This document shows positions 847 through 41,624 of a stretch of DNA of 41,624 nt, in pieces. The notes under the pieces were generated by a model. It saw nothing but the letters and a program-made list of their open reading frames with translations. It searched no databases and was not told where the DNA came from. The stretch comes from a virus: positions 1 to 41,624 of the IMG/VR virus record IMGVR_UViG_3300025073_000341; one strand, 5' to 3'. The position numbers were made by a program, and so were the translations under genes. How positions within the stretch are numbered: position 1 is the stretch's first letter; every line of letters begins with the position of its first letter.

Positions 847-1203
847 TCAGCACTCCGATTCGGCGTAGCACTTCTCGGTCTCGTAGACACGAACCCTGAA
901 GATGCGATTGTCGGCCTCATGCAGAGTGTTCAGGATAATTTGGGAGATGCGCTCGGCGGTCGGATTCCCGTCAAACTCGGAGAAGTCGTTGAGATGGTAG
1001 TGGTCGTACTTCTTCACCACGAGGTCGTCCACGAGGGTGGAGATATCGTCGAAGTCCATCACGATTCCGTTCTCGTTCAGGTCGCCGGAAGCCCAGACGT
1101 GGAGCTTGTAGCTGTGTCCGTGGAGTCGCTGGCACTTGCCCGGATGCCACTTCAACTGATGCGATGACTCGAACGTATACCGCTTGTGAATGGATGTTTT
1201 CAT
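847..1203 (-). CDS. queD: 6-carboxy-tetrahydropterin synthase QueD
   Basis: Converts dihydroneopterin triphosphate to 6-carboxy-5,6,7,8-tetrahydropterin, the second step from GTP to preQ0. The 118-residue protein has the PTPS/QueD pattern: zinc histidines at H15 (FESSH) and H28/H30 (LHGH), a catalytic cysteine at C24, a YDHYHLND segment with the catalytic Asp/His, and a C-terminal ET-K glutamate motif. The ATG at 1203 follows CACT. It is the first gene of the leftward 7-deazaguanine operon, with a -10-like TATAAT only nine bases upstream of the ATG. It looks intact. Confidence 0.95.
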   Translation of the reverse strand: MKTSIHKRYTFESSHQLKWHPGKCQRLHGHSYKLHVWASGDLNENGIVMDFDDISTLVDDLVVKKYDHYHLNDFSEFDGNPTAERISQIILNTLHEADNRIFRVRVYETEKCYAESEC

Positions 1204-2928: not shown

Positions 2929-3315
2929 TCAATATAACACATTTGTATCATTTGGACAAGAGATGCCGACGTAGCCGATTTCCATCTGTATGACCAATGG
3001 GAGAAAGCGGTAGTAGTACTGCTCCCATTCGTAGGACGTATGCACCGCCTCCTTGCCCGTCCGGTGATGCTCGGCGCACAGGGGAACTGCGTTCCAATCC
3101 TCCTGTGCGTACTCCGGCCATTTCCCACGGCTCAAGATATGCGAGTATTCGACCTGTGGATAACTTTCTCGGCGACCGTCAAACACCACCGGCGACTGAA
3201 TCCCGCACCTCGGATGCTGGCATCTTCCCTCGAACCTCTCCATCACCGACAGATAGGTCTGGTGCGGAATAGCCCGTTGATACTGCTTCTGCGGTCGGCT
3301 TTTCTTGAGGGGCAT
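2929..3315 (-). CDS. HNH endonuclease-like protein
   Basis: A 128-residue protein with the HNH fold order: CQHPRC (C32, C37), then YSHILSRG with the first His at H59, WNAVPLC (N75, C80), and EHHRTGKEAVH with H83/H84 and H92. HNH enzymes nick or cut DNA with one metal. I start at 3315 (MPLKKSRPQ), which overlaps the peptide deformylase gene by 137 bases. The ATG follows GAGAGG, one of the few starts with a possible Shine-Dalgarno and without T before it. It could be a packaging-associated or homing nuclease; it is not adjacent to terminase. Confidence 0.75.
   Translation of the reverse strand: MPLKKSRPQKQYQRAIPHQTYLSVMERFEGRCQHPRCGIQSPVVFDGRRESYPQVEYSHILSRGKWPEYAQEDWNAVPLCAEHHRTGKEAVHTSYEWEQYYYRFLPLVIQMEIGYVGISCPNDTNVLY
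2931..2959 (-). promoter_or_regulatory. Leftward promoter with CAAATG elements
   Basis: Minus strand: TTGTCC (4/6), a 17-bp spacer, then TATATT (5/6), six bases before the ATG at 2924. The spacer carries two CAAATG copies. It lies in the tail of the HNH gene, so it re-initiates transcription for the small genes toward 1227. The predicted transcript is leaderless. Confidence 0.5.
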
Positions 3316-3874
3316 CCTCTCCGGTATCGTTCGGCTTGAGGGAGGGGACGGTTTGTCCCCCCGCTTTCGTGGATTCTTCACGTTGGGCGAGGATAAGCTC
3401 GCAGGTTTTTTCCCAGAGTTCTTTGTCTTCATAAACGTATTTTCCATCAAGATGTTCGGTCTCGTGCTGGAACACTTGGGCATCCCGTCCCGAAAGGTTC
3501 TGACGCTGTACTTCCCCGAGCTTCCCGTCCTCAAGCACTTGGAACTCAACCTCGCATTTGTGCGAGCGCATGACATCGACGGGTCGGCTGAACGGAAACG
3601 TCATGCATCCCTCGGTTCGCTTCACCGGAACCTGCGTCTTTCGGATAATTTTCGGATTGCAGACGATCAGGTTCTCGTGCGTCACGAAGAAACGGAGAGG
3701 GTCTTGATCGTCCACCTGCGGATGGGCGATGGCGAATGCGCCCGGATTGACCCCGTATTTCCGATGGCACATCGCACGCATGACCTCCGCATATTCCTTG
3801 ACACGCTCGATGTCGGCATCAGTCACGTCACGGCTGATCTTTCGGTGTGGCAAAACGTAGTAGTAGTTCGGCAT
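3179..3874 (-). CDS. def: Peptide deformylase with C-terminal extension
   Basis: Removes the formyl group from the N-terminal formyl-methionine of new proteins. All three motifs are visible in the 231-residue protein: motif 1 as GAFAIAHPQ (45-53; usual form GxGLAAxQ), motif 2 EGC (88-90, metal Cys) and motif 3 HETEH (137-141, metal histidines and catalytic Glu). About 70 extra residues, rich in Pro, Glu and Ser, follow the catalytic domain and overlap the HNH gene. The ATG at 3874 follows ATT. Several phages carry a deformylase; here it sits in a genome that also has an initiator-like tRNA. Confidence 0.92.
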   Translation of the reverse strand: MPNYYYVLPHRKISRDVTDADIERVKEYAEVMRAMCHRKYGVNPGAFAIAHPQVDDQDPLRFFVTHENLIVCNPKIIRKTQVPVKRTEGCMTFPFSRPVDVMRSHKCEVEFQVLEDGKLGEVQRQNLSGRDAQVFQHETEHLDGKYVYEDKELWEKTCELILAQREESTKAGGQTVPSLKPNDTGEDAPQEKPTAEAVSTGYSAPDLSVGDGEVRGKMPASEVRDSVAGGV

Positions 3875-5068: not shown

Positions 5069-5839
5069 TCAGATGGTCGCCACGAGGGACGGCTTGTTAT
5101 CCTTGCGGGACTTGTAGGCGATCAGCTTCCCGAGCTTGGTCTGCAGTTCGTAGGGCGAGGTGATGACCGGGGCGTATTGCTCCCCGTTCACGCTTGCGGC
5201 GTACTCGATCATCGCCATGACCTTTTCGAGGCCGAACTTGCAGACGAGGAAGGCGGCGGCCTTGCGCTCGGTCTTGTTCCCGAAGTTGATCCCCGGATTT
5301 ACCGACTCACGGAAGGCGTTGAGGACGGAGACGGTATCGTCGTTCGAAATTGTTTCACGTGAAACAACCTGACAATCAGACCCAAGTCCGACCACGTTAC
5401 CCGGCTTTTGCCCCGTATCTTCAGATACGGAATCAATCTTACTCTTTTCTTCAATCTTACTTACTGTATCCGTCTTACTTATGGTACGGATTTTCCCAAC
5501 TTGGCTTTTTCCCAACTTCGGATTTTCCGGATCAGGCACGGCCAAATCCGGTTTTTCCGTATCAGGCGCAAAAGAGAGCATATAAGCGACACGCCCGGAA
5601 CTCTGCTTGGTACGGGTTAGGTACTCAAAACTCTCCAGTTCCTTCAACCCTTCCAGCACGGCATCCCTGCCGTCGGCATGATCCTGCATGATGCGCCTGA
5701 ACGAGAAATCGTACCCGTCCGGCTTGCTGTACAGGTAGGCGAAAAGGCCTTTTGCCTTCATCGAGAGACGCTTGTCGTTGAGGACGACGTTCGCAACCTG
5801 CGTGAACGGGACACCTTGGTGGGAGATGGCTTGGCGCAT
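5069..5839 (-). CDS. Winged-helix replication-initiator-like protein
   Basis: Residues about 12-80 form a winged-helix DNA-binding domain of the phage replisome-organiser type (VANVVLNDKRLSMKAKGLFA, then RDAVLEGLKELESFEYLTR). A low-complexity linker (about 92-165) rich in Ser, Lys and Asp follows, then a helical C-terminal domain (170-245). Total 256 residues. In lambda O-type initiators the linker DNA is the origin; here the linker DNA holds repeats, a palindrome and a parS site. The start at 5839 follows CCT; the longer open frame begins upstream without support. It is the first gene of the leftward block. No helicase or polymerase gene is present, so it would recruit host enzymes. Confidence 0.65.
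   Translation of the reverse strand: MRQAISHQGVPFTQVANVVLNDKRLSMKAKGLFAYLYSKPDGYDFSFRRIMQDHADGRDAVLEGLKELESFEYLTRTKQSSGRVAYMLSFAPDTEKPDLAVPDPENPKLGKSQVGKIRTISKTDTVSKIEEKSKIDSVSEDTGQKPGNVVGLGSDCQVVSRETISNDDTVSVLNAFRESVNPGINFGNKTERKAAAFLVCKFGLEKVMAMIEYAASVNGEQYAPVITSPYELQTKLGKLIAYKSRKDNKPSLVATI
5350..5367. promoter_or_regulatory. parS: parS-like site, exact match to the bacterial chromosomal consensus
   Basis: Bases 5351-5366 read TGTTTCACGTGAAACA, the universal ParB-binding parS palindrome of bacterial chromosomes, with one further paired base on each side. A 16-base match is not expected by chance in 41 kb. It codes for part of VSRETI in the linker of the initiator-like protein. Host ParB would be expected to load here. 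The phage's own ParB-like protein lacks an evident helix-turn-helix, so it is not the obvious partner. Confidence 0.85.
5413..5567. other. Candidate replication origin: palindrome and iteron-like repeats
   Basis: Inside the initiator-like gene, in order: an 18-base inverted repeat at 5413-5430 (CCGTATCT, two bases, AGATACGG); three copies of a TCTTACT-centred repeat starting at 5433, 5451 and 5470, spaced 18-19 bp, in a T-rich stretch; TTTTCCCAACTT at 5491 and again at 5507; and GG(A/T)TTTTCCG(G/T)ATCAGGC at 5520 and 5550. The nature and position resemble lambda-type origins inside gene O. The protein linker is itself repetitive, which could explain part of this. Confidence 0.5.
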
Positions 5840-5879: not shown

Positions 5880-5930
5880 GCATAGGCACTTGACACGCAC
5901 AGGCCGGGGCATCATTCCCGGCCTTTGTGT
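5880..5930 (+). ncRNA. Candidate short RNA between P1 and a terminator-like hairpin
   Basis: Promoter P1 and the hairpin at 5902-5923 bracket about 50 bases with no usable reading frame. This could be a small stable RNA or an attenuated leader that limits read-through into the rightward genes. The call is inference from the order promoter, short spacer, hairpin, next promoter. Confidence 0.35.
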
Positions 5931-5932
5931 TT
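5898..5932 (+). terminator. Intrinsic terminator-like hairpin
   Basis: GGCCGGG (5902-5908), an eight-base loop, CCCGGCC (5917-5923), then TTTGTGTTT. CACA/TGTG can extend the base. The T-tract is interrupted, so efficiency is uncertain. Its tail overlaps the -35 of the next promoter. Confidence 0.55.
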
Positions 5933-5959
5933 ACAATACTATCATGTTGTGGATATAAT
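5930..5959 (+). promoter_or_regulatory. Rightward promoter P2
   Basis: TTTACA (5/6), 18 bp, TATAAT (6/6). The expected start near 5966 gives a leader of about 40 bases to the ATG at 6005, without a Shine-Dalgarno in place. Confidence 0.65.
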
Positions 5960-6227: not shown

Positions 6228-6256
6228 TTGACACTATAATCACGACAGGTTATAAT
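6228..6256 (+). promoter_or_regulatory. Consensus sigma70-type promoter P3
   Basis: TTGACA at 6228-6233, exactly 17 bp, TATAAT at 6251-6256: all twelve consensus positions match. It should be the main early promoter for the long rightward gene string. Confidence 0.9.
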
Positions 6257-10299: not shown

Positions 10300-10557
10300 A
10301 TGGAAGACAAAGCATGGCCGGGCGATTGCCTCCAACCTGACATTGACCGTGGCATCCGACTGGCAAGAAAGGCGGAGCAAAGGAAGCTCGACGAAATCCG
10401 TTTTTTCCACGATGCGTTTACACTTGCCACGACAAACGGCCAGCTCGTGGACGTGTCGGAAGACGACGAGGAAGCTGACGAAGGCGGAGGCGAGTACTAC
10501 ATCACTCTCGCACAGCTCATGGACTTGCTGGAGAAGCACCAAAAACAAACGATATGA
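10300..10557 (+). CDS. Acidic hypothetical protein, 85 aa
   Basis: An N-terminal helix with basic residues (RGIRLARKAEQRKLDEIRFFHDAF), a very acidic middle (SEDDEEADEGGGE) and a C-terminal helix (TLAQLMDLLEKHQKQ). The acidic stretch could mimic nucleic acid, but that is speculative. It overlaps the next gene by four bases (ATGA). Confidence 0.6.
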   Translation: MEDKAWPGDCLQPDIDRGIRLARKAEQRKLDEIRFFHDAFTLATTNGQLVDVSEDDEEADEGGGEYYITLAQLMDLLEKHQKQTI

Positions 10558-11485: not shown

Positions 11486-11878
11486 ATGCGAACAATCAAG
11501 TTCCGTATATGGGACAAAGGCCGTAATGCATGGCATGTCGATAACGAACATGCCGTCAACCTTTTCGGGGAAACGATCATCATGGGCGAAATCCTCCGCC
11601 GCCCTGACGACACAGGCGTAAAGATCAGCGAGCTAAATGATCTTGTTCCGATGCAGTTCACCGGCCTACTGGACAAAAACAGGAAGGAGATCTACGAAGG
11701 CGACTGGGTCAGAATGGACAGAGGAACGTGCGAAAAAAATGGGATAGCGGTCGTATCGTGGGATGAAACCGGATGGTCGCCATGGATCAATAACAACCTT
11801 CTTGAGGGTATCGGATTCCAAAATGAAGATTGCGAGGTCGTCGGGAATATCTACCAAAATCCCGAGTTGCTAACATAA
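11486..11878 (+). CDS. YopX-family protein
   Basis: The family pattern is complete in 130 residues: an N-terminal TIKFRIWDKGRNAW, a middle MQFTGLLDKNRKEIYEGDWV and a C-terminal CEVVGNIYQNPELL. YopX proteins are small beta-rich phage proteins of unknown function, common in phages of many hosts. The start at 11486 follows AAT, two bases after the upstream gene. Confidence 0.9.
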   Translation: MRTIKFRIWDKGRNAWHVDNEHAVNLFGETIIMGEILRRPDDTGVKISELNDLVPMQFTGLLDKNRKEIYEGDWVRMDRGTCEKNGIAVVSWDETGWSPWINNNLLEGIGFQNEDCEVVGNIYQNPELLT

Positions 11879-36112: not shown

Positions 36113-37684
36113 TTAGAATTGCTTTTCACGAATGTTGCCAAGCACTCCGGTTCGCTTCTTTGCGTTTAATTTTACAGCATTTGAGGCAAAGAGTGAATTT
36201 GCGTAGACGAAAGCGTCCACGAGGTCGTCATGGCTCCCGTTCGGAAACTGGATTAGCTCGTTGTAGAGATCGACGTGCGATGCGGAAAACTTGATGATTC
36301 CCTGCGAAACCAACGGCTCGACGAACCTTGCACGGTTCACCTTGTCCCGTCCCTTCGGGTCGAGGGCGACGAGGCGGTACTTGTTCCGTGCGAGAAGGAG
36401 CTGGTAGAGGGCGGTCTGGTTCATCACCTTTTCCACCCCTGCGATCTGCGGTTCCCACTTCGAGTATACCTCGTCGAAGACCTTTTCCTGCTCGGTGATT
36501 GGGCCTTTGAACCTCCGTGCCTCCAAAACGTACCGCTTGTTGTCCCTGCGATCCCTTCCGACGACGCAAATGCCCATGAAGTCGGCCATCTGGCTTTGTC
36601 CTGCGTTCGGATCGACCGCCATCTTGATATCGAGCCAGTTGAGGTCAGGAAGAACGGGATAAATGTTCTGATCCATCCACTCACGCTTGAACACGCTCGT
36701 CTCGTCGTTGACCGGCTCGTTCAGGTATTCCTGCGAGAACGCCTGCAACCCGATGCCCTCGATATGCTTTCCGCTCTCGTCAACGTATCCGTCACGGAGC
36801 TTGAACAAGTCCTCAATCGACCACATCTCCGGCCAGATGCTCTTTCCTTCCTCAATCGCCCTGCGAAAGATGCCGCCATGCCCATGATAAAACTTCAACA
36901 CCTCGCTGTCGGGATGAATCACCGTTCCGATAATCTTGAGGTATCCACGCTTCTTGTCCTTCGAGGGAATGATGACGTTCGTGATCCAGTTGTGGAGCTT
37001 CCGGCGTTGGATCGTACTCATGACCTGCTCGTCGTTCTCGATGTCGTCGCAGATGATCTTGGTCGGGCGGTTGTTCTTGATGTTCACGCCACGCCCCTTT
37101 CCGGCTCCACGGGCGACCACGTTGACCCCGTTGCTCGTCTCGAAATGGACGTTTGTCCACTTTCTCCCGGTCAAACTCTCGGGAGGAACCATGTTTCCGT
37201 ACACGTCGATCAGCCCATCGTTGTTCTCCAGCTCCGCCTTGATACTCTCGAAATGGAACCCTGCGTCCTGCAACGTGTCCGAAATATACAAAATGACGCT
37301 TTCCAACTGATAAACGATGTCATGCAGGGTATCGATCTTCTCCCACGTCGATTTGGCAAAGCCACGGGGAAAGATGATCGCCGAATCCTCACGCCTCGTC
37401 ATCTCCCGAATGAGGGTGAGATGGCACTCCGGCGTGGCAAAGTCCCCGGTAATGATGTGGGGAAAGAAGTAACGGCCAAAAATATGCAGGAATTTCTTTT
37501 CCCGCAACGAATCATGGAGAAAGGTACACCTAGCCCCCCTGTTCGGTTGCTTTCGGAGTATCCCCAGCCACTCCTCGAACGACCCCGTGATCTCCGGTTC
37601 TTCCGGGTTCGAGGTGGTTCCAACGTTCGAGGTATCGGAGTGTTGCGTCGTCGAGTTCATGCTTTTGTTTGATTTCCCCGTCAT
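36113..37684 (-). CDS. terL: Terminase large subunit
   Basis: 523 residues. ATPase: Walker A FPRGFAKST (105-113) and Walker B IICDDIE (210-216). RNase H-like nuclease: MAVDPNAGQSQ (about 366) and HDDLVDAF (about 487). It pumps DNA into proheads and cuts it. The start is unsure: ATG at 37684 overlaps the small subunit by 155 bases, ATG at 37660 by 131; neither has T before it. The N-terminal helix FLHIFGRYFFPHII, needed in the family, starts well after both. It is followed after three bases by the portal gene. Confidence 0.93.
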   Translation of the reverse strand: MTGKSNKSMNSTTQHSDTSNVGTTSNPEEPEITGSFEEWLGILRKQPNRGARCTFLHDSLREKKFLHIFGRYFFPHIITGDFATPECHLTLIREMTRREDSAIIFPRGFAKSTWEKIDTLHDIVYQLESVILYISDTLQDAGFHFESIKAELENNDGLIDVYGNMVPPESLTGRKWTNVHFETSNGVNVVARGAGKGRGVNIKNNRPTKIICDDIENDEQVMSTIQRRKLHNWITNVIIPSKDKKRGYLKIIGTVIHPDSEVLKFYHGHGGIFRRAIEEGKSIWPEMWSIEDLFKLRDGYVDESGKHIEGIGLQAFSQEYLNEPVNDETSVFKREWMDQNIYPVLPDLNWLDIKMAVDPNAGQSQMADFMGICVVGRDRRDNKRYVLEARRFKGPITEQEKVFDEVYSKWEPQIAGVEKVMNQTALYQLLLARNKYRLVALDPKGRDKVNRARFVEPLVSQGIIKFSASHVDLYNELIQFPNGSHDDLVDAFVYANSLFASNAVKLNAKKRTGVLGNIREKQF

Positions 37685-38056: not shown

Positions 38057-38833
38057 TCAACCCAGCGAAGAATCTCCAATGTCTCCCAGTTCCTCATCCT
38101 CGCATCGCTCAAGCACGAAAATGCCCAGCTTGTCCCCCTTCGTCCCTTCCATTCTCAACCTGTCGAAAAACCCCGTCAACCTTCGGTAAATGGCCGAGGT
38201 CAGGCGTACCCGATAAACCCTCCGCACCTGTATCTCGCATTCCCCCTCCTGCCCTTGGTCGAGCAGTTCCCGAATCTTCTTGAACGTTTCCTCGTCCACC
38301 CCCGCCTTGATGGTGTTCTCGGGGGTCGCCTTGCCTTCCTCGAAGGAAACGTCGTTCTGGACGAATTTGTCCCAGTCGAACGCCAGCATGTCCAACCGTT
38401 CCTGAACCTCCTTGTCCGTGAATGGCAGACGCTTCCGTCCCGCCTCGCTGATCTCCAAAAGCACCTTGGCGAGCTTGAGGTCGTTGATCGGGATCTTGAT
38501 CAAGTCCTTGTTGAGCGTCCGGGTCATCGCCTCGTCCCTTGAGAGTTTGCCGAGGTTGTTGATCGGCACTTCGGTCGCCCCGAGTTCCCGCAGGGCAAGA
38601 TAGCGGTGCTGGCCGTCCACGATCTCGAACGAGCCGTCCTCCGTCTCCCTGCATTCCACCGGCTCGGTGAACCCGTGATCCAAAATCGTCTTTACGAGTT
38701 TTTCGTAAAGTTCCCTGTTCTCCTTGCTTTCTTCGAGCGAATCCTTCGGGTTGTAGTCGTTCATGCGCACCTTGTCCACGGGGACGAATTGCACGTTGAT
38801 CGCTATTCCCAGCTCACCCCTCTTGTTTGCCAT
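38057..38833 (-). CDS. ParB/Srx-like domain protein
   Basis: 258 residues. The N-terminal 115 hold a ParB/Srx fold: VDKVRMNDYNP, then VKTILDHGFTEPVECRE, the nucleotide-binding motif DGQHRYLALRELG (73-85) and TLNKDL (106-111). A helical region (KLAKVLLEISEAG...TDKEVQERLDMLAFDWDKFV) and a C-terminal strand part follow, with no clear helix-turn-helix, so it is not a typical plasmid or chromosome ParB. It overlaps the end of the DpdA-like gene by 31 bases. In bacterial dpd clusters the DpdB protein of this superfamily works with DpdA. Confidence 0.8.
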   Translation of the reverse strand: MANKRGELGIAINVQFVPVDKVRMNDYNPKDSLEESKENRELYEKLVKTILDHGFTEPVECRETEDGSFEIVDGQHRYLALRELGATEVPINNLGKLSRDEAMTRTLNKDLIKIPINDLKLAKVLLEISEAGRKRLPFTDKEVQERLDMLAFDWDKFVQNDVSFEEGKATPENTIKAGVDEETFKKIRELLDQGQEGECEIQVRRVYRVRLTSAIYRRLTGFFDRLRMEGTKGDKLGIFVLERCEDEELGDIGDSSLG

Positions 38834-39745: not shown

Positions 39746-40732
39746 CTATCGCAATGAATCGAAGAATTCGCTTCGGGCGGCGGGGTTCTCAAGGAACACG
39801 CCGGTCATCTTGTTGGTCGTCATCACGGAGTTCTGCTTGTTCACGCCCCGTGACTTCATGCAGAGGTGCTGTGCCTCGATCATCACGGCCACACCCTTCG
39901 GGCAGAGCTTGTCGTTGAGGAAGGCGGCCACCTGCTCGGTGATGCGCTCTTGGTTCTGCAACCGCCGTGCGAACAGGTCTACCACACGGGCGAGCTTCGA
40001 GATGCCGACGATCTTCCCGTTCGGGATATAGGCGACGTGCGCCCGTCCGAAGAACGGGAGGAGATGATGCTCGCAGGTCGAATGAAACTCAATGTCCTTG
40101 AGAAGCACCATCTGGTCGTAGCCCTCCGAGTCGAACACGGTCATGAATGCGTCCCCGTCGGTACGATAGCCCTCCGTGAGTTCCTTCCACGCCTTCGTCA
40201 CACGCTTGGGGGTTTTTTTCAATCCCTCACGGAGCGGGTCTTCCCCCATGCCACGGATGAGGGCGGTCACGGCCTGTTCCATGCCTCCCGGCGTGTCCTC
40301 CTGCGTCTCCCACGGGAAGACGAGCCATTCGTCCTTGCCGTATTCCATATAGGCATATGACGGAATGGAAAACTTCTGGGCATATTCCGAAGGGCGGAGT
40401 TTCGTGCTACTCACCACGACAGCCGAAAAAAGCCCTTGGATGGGTTCAAGGGTCGCACCCGTATCAATCAGGTCATCGACGACGACGCTGTTCTTCTCAA
40501 TTTTCCACGCTTCTTTTTCCGCAAGATCCAAGTACTGAAGACGGCACTCAACGTTGAGCTTCTTCAATTCATAGCCAAGAACGGAGGCGGGAACGGCACC
40601 GCCACGCAAAAGCCCGTAAATGACGAGGTCTTCTTTCAAAATACCGTCTGGGATGGCGGAGGTGGCAATCCATTCTGCGGCTCGTTGCATGGATTCCCTG
40701 ATGTACTCAAGGGAAACGTAGGTCTTTTTCAT
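39746..40732 (-). CDS. folE: Phosphoribosyltransferase - GTP cyclohydrolase I fusion
   Basis: 328 residues. Residues 1-145 are a purine phosphoribosyltransferase of Gpt type: [10 protein letters not shown] (41-50), the PRPP motif [12 protein letters not shown] (83-94) and EWLVFPWE (135-142) near the base pocket. Residues 150-328 are GTP cyclohydrolase I: zinc ligands C220, H223 and C291 in [12 protein letters not shown] and [10 protein letters not shown], with [17 protein letters not shown] between. The second domain makes dihydroneopterin triphosphate from GTP, the entry to preQ0. The first may turn free guanine to GMP. One unbroken frame links them. ATG at 40732 follows TTT. Confidence 0.92.
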
Positions 40733-40773
40733 AAAGGGAAATGGGGGTCTGCCGAAGCTCGCCCCCGAGATTA

Positions 40774-41430
40774 TCAGGCGTAGAAACCTTCCGGCTCGGT
40801 GATTCCCGCCTTTTCCATGGCCTCGATGCGCTCGGAACACGCCCCGCACTTTCCGCAGTGGCGTTCCAGCCCCTTATAGCACGTCCACGTCTTGTCATAC
40901 GGGACGCCCAGTTCCTTGCCACGGAGGGCAATGTCGCCCTTGTCCATGTCGATGAACGGGGCGAACACGGCGACGGGCTGGTAGTTTGCGATCATCGTCA
41001 CTGCGGACAACGCCGCCACGAACTCCTTGCGGCAGTCCGGGTAGATGGCGTGGTCGCCAGCATGCGCCCCGAAGAACACGTCCCCAGCACCGATGGACAC
41101 GGCGTGTCCGACGGCGACGGAGAGCATGATCATGTTTCGGTTCGGGACGACGGTCGCCTTCATGTTCTCGTCGGCGTAGTGGCCTTCCGGCACGTCCACG
41201 TCGTCGGTCAGGGCGGAACCCTTGAGAAGTCCGTTCACGGACGAGAGATCGACGACGTGGTGGGGAACCCCCAGCTCGGCGCAGATCGCACGGGCGTAGT
41301 CCAGCTCCTTCTTGTGACGCTGGCCATAGTCGAAGGACAGGGCGTGGACTTCGTACCCCAACGCACGCAGGTGGTACAGAAGGGTCACGGAATCCATACC
41401 CCCCGACAGGATTTGAACGGCTTTCTTCAT
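40774..41430 (-). CDS. queC: 7-cyano-7-deazaguanine synthase QueC
   Basis: 218 residues. Uses ATP and ammonia to turn 7-carboxy-7-deazaguanine into preQ0. PP-loop SGGMDS (9-14), [11 protein letters not shown] (34-44), [23 protein letters not shown], and four zinc cysteines (C184, C192, C195, C198). No glutamine amidotransferase domain is fused, so the simple preQ0 product is expected. The start at 41430 follows ACT and has GGAG nearby; it lies 10 bp after queE. Confidence 0.95.
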
Positions 41431-41440
41431 AGTGGCTCCG

Positions 41441-41624
41441 TTAGACGGCACGCTTCGTGCCATGAATGAGAATGTGGACACGGGGACAGACACGCCACCC
41501 GAAGGTCAGGGCGATGTCCTCGGCGAGCTTGAAGCCCACGATCTGCGAGTCCCTCGTCACGCCTTCCGGCATGATGAGAACCCGGTCGTTGGGCATTCCG
41601 CTCTCTTGGACGATCTTCTGAATC
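41441..41624 (-). CDS. queE: QueE, 3' end (plus the repeated part)
   Basis: Continuation of the gene at 1-716. Bases 41471-41441 add the last residues (…LIHGTKRAV) and the TAA stop at 41441-41443. Bases 41472-41624 repeat the coding DNA of 1-153. Ten bases later queC starts, confirming the operon order queE-queC across the junction. Confidence 0.9.
   Translation of the reverse strand, partial: IQKIVQESGMPNDRVLIMPEGVTRDSQIVGFKLAEDIALTFGWRVCPRVHILIHGTKRAV
41472..41624. repeat. Terminal direct repeat, right copy
   Basis: Copy of 1-153 with C at 41498 in place of T at 27. See the left copy. The difference may be real variation in the phage population. Confidence 0.9.

Follow-up and report, generated by a model that had tools for sequence, protein, structure and literature searches.

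Results

An exact chromosomal-type parS sequence in a replication-initiation-like gene

The window analysed here is the whole of the viral record IMGVR_UViG_3300025073_000341 (41,624 nt), hereafter the study phage. A gene for a replication-initiation-like protein, P0001, carries the 16-mer TGTTTCACGTGAAACA within a slightly longer perfect palindrome (Table 1), and the surrounding sequence reads ...CGTTCGAAATTGTTTCACGTGAAACAACCTG.... The published chromosomal parS consensus is TGTTNCACGTGAAACA (PMC7022226), and the 16-mer agrees with it throughout. This copy is the sole match to parS with three mismatches or fewer in the window; a third-order Markov model built on the window puts the expected number of exact copies at 6.9e-6. 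To judge by its bases, it can be taken as a genuine host-type parS sequence. The initial annotation had described an exact 16-position match to the ParB consensus, improbable by chance and lying in the coding DNA of a replication gene, and all of this was borne out.

Table 1. Positions of the features of the study phage considered in this work.
Feature	Position	Strand	Remarks
QueD/PTPS	847-1203	-	preQ0 pathway
Peptide deformylase (PF01327)	3179-3874	-	
P0001, HTH replication-initiation-like protein	5069-5839	-	256 aa; PHROG matches, predicted structure
Palindrome TTGTTTCACGTGAAACAA	5350-5367		18 bp, perfect, around parS; arms 5350-5358 and 5359-5367, 100% complementary
parS TGTTTCACGTGAAACA	5351-5366		16/16 versus chromosomal ParB-binding consensus TGTTNCACGTGAAACA
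Imperfect direct and inverted repeats	~5410-5567		in P0001 linker; candidate initiator-internal origin, suggested by lambda O-like gene layout
Sigma-70 consensus promoter	5930-5959	+	near-perfect, 11/12
Sigma-70 consensus promoter	6228-6256	+	perfect, 12/12
YopX-family phage protein (PF09643)	11486-11878	+	
Terminase large subunit (TerL)	36113-37684	-	46% identical to that of an integrated Candidatus Uhrbacteria prophage
ParB_N-only protein	38057-38803	-	profile match, without HTH_ParB; unlikely parS reader
GTP cyclohydrolase I (FolE)	39746-40849	-	preQ0 pathway; also a weak phosphoribosyltransferase match
QueC	40774-41493	-	preQ0 pathway

The P0001 gene matches PHROG families 37920 (HTH DNA-binding, E 8e-18) and 4707 (replication initiation, E 6e-15), and an HTH_36 match stays below threshold. 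The nearest phage proteins include the products of RepA-like, DnaA-analogue and DnaD-like helicase-loader genes of Gordonia, Arthrobacter and Lactobacillus/Lactococcus phages. An N-terminal HTH (residues ~12-90) is followed by a linker (91-162) and, from residue 166, by a helical C-terminal domain; in the predicted model, whose overall confidence is low (mean pLDDT 52), pLDDT is below 50 in the linker. This layout is also that of lambda O-like initiators, but where these have internal-origin iterons the P0001 gene shows imperfect repeats only. The initial annotation had placed candidate origin repeats beside parS: the repeats are indeed there, imperfect as they are, and the origin remains putative, being deduced from the gene layout. 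Both sigma-70 consensus promoters lie just past the strand switch that adjoins the rep gene.

The parS sequence spans codons 158-163 of P0001 (VVSRET), at the end of the linker, in the context Q-V-V-S-R-E-T-I-S-N. The codon choice at the site is unexpected from the peptide: it includes TCA and ACA, which are rare in the codon usage of the study phage (8% of Ser and 6% of Thr codons, respectively), and the probability of exactly these codons given VVSRET, calculated as the product of the codon frequencies of the phage, is 2.5e-5. In the three P0001 homologues that we compared, the corresponding stretch is absent or cannot be aligned, and no conserved protein feature therefore accounts for parS. 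The homologues in the collections, all of them distant (about 30-51% identity), do not carry parS, and a search of INPHARED returned no near relative of the study phage. The possibility that a coding sequence simply came to spell parS, without function in this phage, gains something from the distant homologues devoid of parS and from the want of a close relative with a conserved site, but given the tiny number of copies expected in the window we find it distinctly improbable.

Partition genes, other contents and a host lead

Profile searches of the study-phage record found no ParA (PF13614, AAA_31), no HTH_ParB (PF17762) and no tyrosine integrase. As the record is classed as linear, without end repeats, these absences hold only for its sequenced part. 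They agree with the earlier statements that the phage has no ParA and that its own ParB-like protein lacks an evident parS-reading domain, as that protein matches ParB_N alone. The presence of this single ParB_N-domain protein nevertheless raises the question of whether it, or another phage or host HTH protein of the same specificity, might read the palindrome. We deem this very improbable, since the ParB_N protein has no HTH_ParB domain, and since the 16-mer recurs in phages without ParB, with variants that follow the degenerate position of the ParB consensus (see below).

Together, QueD, GTP cyclohydrolase I and QueC form a preQ0 pathway, which points to 7-deazaguanine modification of DNA. 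The guanines of the study phage may thus be modified, which might alter the reading of the site by ParB. The phage also encodes a peptide deformylase and a YopX-family protein.

As for the host, the only relative of TerL among the ~85,000 species genomes scanned comes from Candidatus Uhrbacteria LJ_bin-4636. It belongs to an integrated prophage that adjoins secA; a recombinase-like gene lies toward the opposite end, followed by bacterial genes. The LJ_bin-4636 genome encodes ParA and ParB and has two imperfect parS sequences, with one and two mismatches, while the prophage itself has no parS within two mismatches. In the phylum to which Uhrbacteria belongs, Patescibacteria, parS with at most one mismatch occurs in 46 of 287 genomes; a reversed-pattern control matched in one genome among the matches listed. 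Patescibacterial chromosomal parS sites are often paired, ~440-530 bp apart, and regular arrays also occur, with five sites every 48 bp in one genome (G184, C3:41545-41752) and TGTTTCGCGTGAAACA every 52 bp in another (G169, C4:27-198). A patescibacterial host for the study phage is a reasonable lead, drawn from one shared gene at 46% identity, and the call stays tentative because the C-terminal domain of P0001 is rare, being found in 2 of 380 Patescibacteria genomes and in 0 phage records.

Exact parS in other phages and viral contigs

Exact parS is present in at least 120 IMG/VR contigs and in 315 of 50,697 annotated phage records, where it occupies 924 places over both strands, or ~462 sites; these records are redundant, and 315 is thus not the number of independent gains. 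None of the 50,697 phage records contained either of two control palindromes of equal length. In viral contigs, the control palindrome TGTTCTACGTAGAACA gave at least 120 matches, as exact parS did, mostly in a few recurring sequence contexts. Raw contig counts therefore prove nothing, and we relied instead on the comparison of variants within a scan and on the phage-record controls. When the pattern TGTTTNACGTNAAACA was used on viral contigs, exact parS made up 110 of the 120 matches listed, and the other 15 central variants together only 10. Exact parS is thus ~165-fold commoner than the average central variant among the matches listed, so that a random exact match in viral contigs is rarely due to chance. 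The 146 parS sites in the viral contigs listed fall into 102 separate sequence contexts. Several viral contigs have two to five exact copies, and three of them (L017, L044 and L053) have clusters of three to five within ~1 kb.

The carriers include phages of Listeria, Microbacterium, Arthrobacter, Gordonia and Bacillus (the phi29-like B103 and Goe1), as well as phages of Lactobacillus, Ruegeria, Butyrivibrio and Enterococcus, Microviridae and Spiroplasma phage 4. We considered whether the parS-bearing contigs might represent chromosomal contamination, which turned out to be unsupported. HTH_ParB was found in none of 50 parS-bearing viral records, study phage included, while the positive control matched in 9 of 14 genomes. 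At least 14 of the 50 records match one terminase family, and others carry a different terminase. With terminases and without HTH_ParB, these contigs are not simply fragments of chromosomal origin regions.

The commonest parS variants differ between phage host groups. Phages of Listeria, Microbacterium, Arthrobacter and Gordonia are the commonest carriers of TGTTTCACGTGAAACA, Pseudomonas phages are the commonest for TGTTCCACGTGGAACA (17 of 58 records), and TGTTCCACGTGAAACA is found mainly in phages of Pseudomonas (36), Arthrobacter (28) and Bacillus (24), out of 147 records. Escherichia and Salmonella phages are outside the ten commonest names in each of the three variant lists. Enterobacterial phages are numerous, and E. 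coli is not known to have a chromosomal ParABS; the absence of these phages from the top names would fit a ParB-dependent site. TGTTCCACGTGGAACA also occurs in 10 Klebsiella phage records (e.g. RaK2 and phiKp_21). We know of no chromosomal ParABS in Klebsiella, and if chromosomal ParB is indeed lacking there, these occurrences are unexplained.

Two open frames run through the palindromic site, giving VSRET in 53 of 68 coding copies and FHVKH/Q in the other 15. Most VSRET copies are located in low-complexity linkers of unrelated proteins, such as gp15 of B103, between its lysozyme and LysM parts, a microvirus Rep, and gp68 of the Microbacterium phage KaiHaiDragon. The VVSRETIS of the study phage fits this pattern. 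Where it falls within a disordered linker of phage proteins, the peptide VSRET is a simple marker for parS sites. KaiHaiDragon gp68 was also considered as a homologue of P0001 and rejected, the likeness being limited to parS in the linker of an HTH gene.

Retention and loss of parS in two other phage groups

Twelve gp68 homologues of Microbacterium phages, chosen by gene similarity, were examined. Exact parS is kept in five of them, at gene identities to KaiHaiDragon down to 73-75% (range 73-86%). The RobsFeet homologue carries TGTTCCACGTGAAACA and that of Tyrumbra TGTTCCACGTGGAACA, which are changes only at the degenerate position of the consensus. Five other homologues, including that of Yeti at 95% identity, have cleanly lost the site. 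As losses by deletion dominate, mean window identity is unhelpful in this set (the parS window ranks low), and the informative signal is exact retention or clean loss.

The second group is a marine phage clade of 69 loci, picked by terminase alone. In 33 of these, exact parS is found at most 600 bp upstream of terL amid diverging flanks, usually with 53-57 bp between the site and the start codon. In this clade TGTTTCACGTGAAACA is often in tandem with TGTTCCACGTGGAACA, mostly within ~110 bp upstream of terL. The palindrome TGTTCTACGTAGAACA is a poor control in this region, as it is two mismatches away from the parS variant TGTTCCACGTGGAACA.

Such tandem sites directly upstream of terL would suit a process in which host ParB at parS brings in SMC condensin, and the phage DNA is compacted or untangled so that it can be replicated or packaged. 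Bacterial ParB at parS loads SMC, according to the accounts in PMC10197239 and PMC9564211. However, parS is also present in microviruses of 4-6 kb, where loop extrusion makes little sense, and we consider SMC recruitment improbable as the main use of the site.

Discussion

ParB recognises its parS sites, on which it loads as a clamp with CTP, and it goes on to spread and to engage ParA (PMC12704722). As exact parS is found widely, and by convergence, in phages without ParB, host ParB is the most plausible ligand of the site, in line with the initial annotation. We thus favour the idea, to which we give a probability of roughly 55%, that host ParB loads at the parS of the study phage and ties the phage genome to the segregation or positioning machinery of the host. 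Both the ParB-parS mechanism and the phi29 precedent speak for recruitment of host ParB for positioning or retention, and we infer binding, spreading and a role in positioning or partition for the study phage by extension.

It is tempting to propose the following scenario. The phage would have gained a host-type parS in a dispensable protein linker that adjoins a putative origin, and the reader of the site would be host ParB rather than a phage protein. Once loaded as a CTP-dependent clamp, host ParB would spread to the phage DNA nearby. Host ParA and/or SMC might then hold the phage genome at the host segregation machinery, or move it along with that machinery. In a slow or deferred infection, the genome would thereby find its position in the cell and be kept there, or be handed to a daughter cell. 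Since many parS-bearing phages are lytic, classical partition cannot be the sole use of the site. Several observations weigh against ParB recruitment, namely that the study phage has a single site, and that neither the distant P0001 homologues nor the Uhrbacteria prophage have it.

Alternatively, host ParB may bind with a merely local benefit, its spreading repressing or timing the initiator-like gene or the firing of the adjacent origin. This would be consistent with the location of parS inside such a gene beside repeats, with its occurrence in other initiator or HTH genes, such as microvirus Rep and the Microbacterium gp68 homologues, and with the lowered expression of adjacent genes when ParB was at a parS upstream of the repA promoter (PMC7022226). 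Nevertheless, no single regulated gene fits the sites found elsewhere. Phage parS sequences lie in unrelated genes (endolysin, scaffold-like, microvirus Rep) or upstream of terL, which argues for a role at the scale of the whole genome over a gene-local one. We therefore regard a local benefit as rather unlikely, and the silencing or timing of the initiator gene put forward in the initial annotation is less favoured on the same grounds.

The phage site might also be a decoy that titrates host ParB and disturbs host segregation. The site alone would suffice for this purpose, and amplified phage genomes would multiply its copies. However, each genome brings one site, against one to about 20 in hosts (PMC10197239), and phi29 exploits Spo0J for entrapment and not for inhibition, as presented in PMC9437464. 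A decoy role thus seems highly unlikely.

Returning to the recruitment of host ParB, the data raise a broader proposal, whose odds we see as evenly poised: carrying parS without ParA or ParB would be a widespread, repeatedly evolved strategy of unrelated dsDNA and ssDNA phages of many host groups, the study phage with its possible patescibacterial host among them, with the variant matched to the host, that controls the position, retention or inheritance of the phage genome, phi29 being one example. The breadth of phage parS beyond phi29 appears undocumented, as a search of mainly open-access literature found no survey of chromosomal parS in phages. If ParB does bind these sites, many phages would rely on the segregation machinery of the host while encoding no part of it. 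This would provide a simple account of how the genomes of lytic phages are placed or retained in cells that grow slowly or do not divide, and ParB-parS would join the host regulatory systems co-opted by phages.

Comparison with known systems

The use of host parS on a phage via host ParB is already known from phi29, whose genome entrapment in spores involves host Spo0J (ParB) (Meijer 2005, as cited in PMC9437464). The phi29 genome has four identical TGTTTCACGTGGAACA sequences, at 10445, 15903, 17243 and 18760, which correspond to the B. subtilis-type TGTTCCACGTGAAACA on the other strand. On sequence grounds, the study phage can be placed beside phi29 as a phage that carries host-type parS without ParA or an HTH-bearing ParB. 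They differ in that phi29, with four sites, infects a sporulating host whose ParB acts on the phage genome, whereas the study phage has one predicted site, in a replication gene, and possibly a patescibacterial host.

The same 16-bp site near a replication origin, putative in our case, is a feature of chromosomal ParABS systems, but the study phage has a single copy and neither parA nor an HTH-encoding parB. In phage-plasmids of the P1 and N15 type, too, a centromere site is present on the phage genome; these elements bring a ParA and a ParB of their own and use a private parS, unlike the study phage. SGI1, as described in PMC10954446, is a mobile element stabilised by the partition system of another replicon, as we propose here, although it is not a phage and uses the parABS of an IncC helper plasmid instead of chromosomal ParB. 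Finally, phages with host CtrA or Spo0A sites ('lytic deferment', as outlined in PMC9437464) likewise represent a convergent gain of sites for host regulators. In those phages a host transcription factor times lysis, whereas in the study phage it is a host segregation protein that would be put to use.
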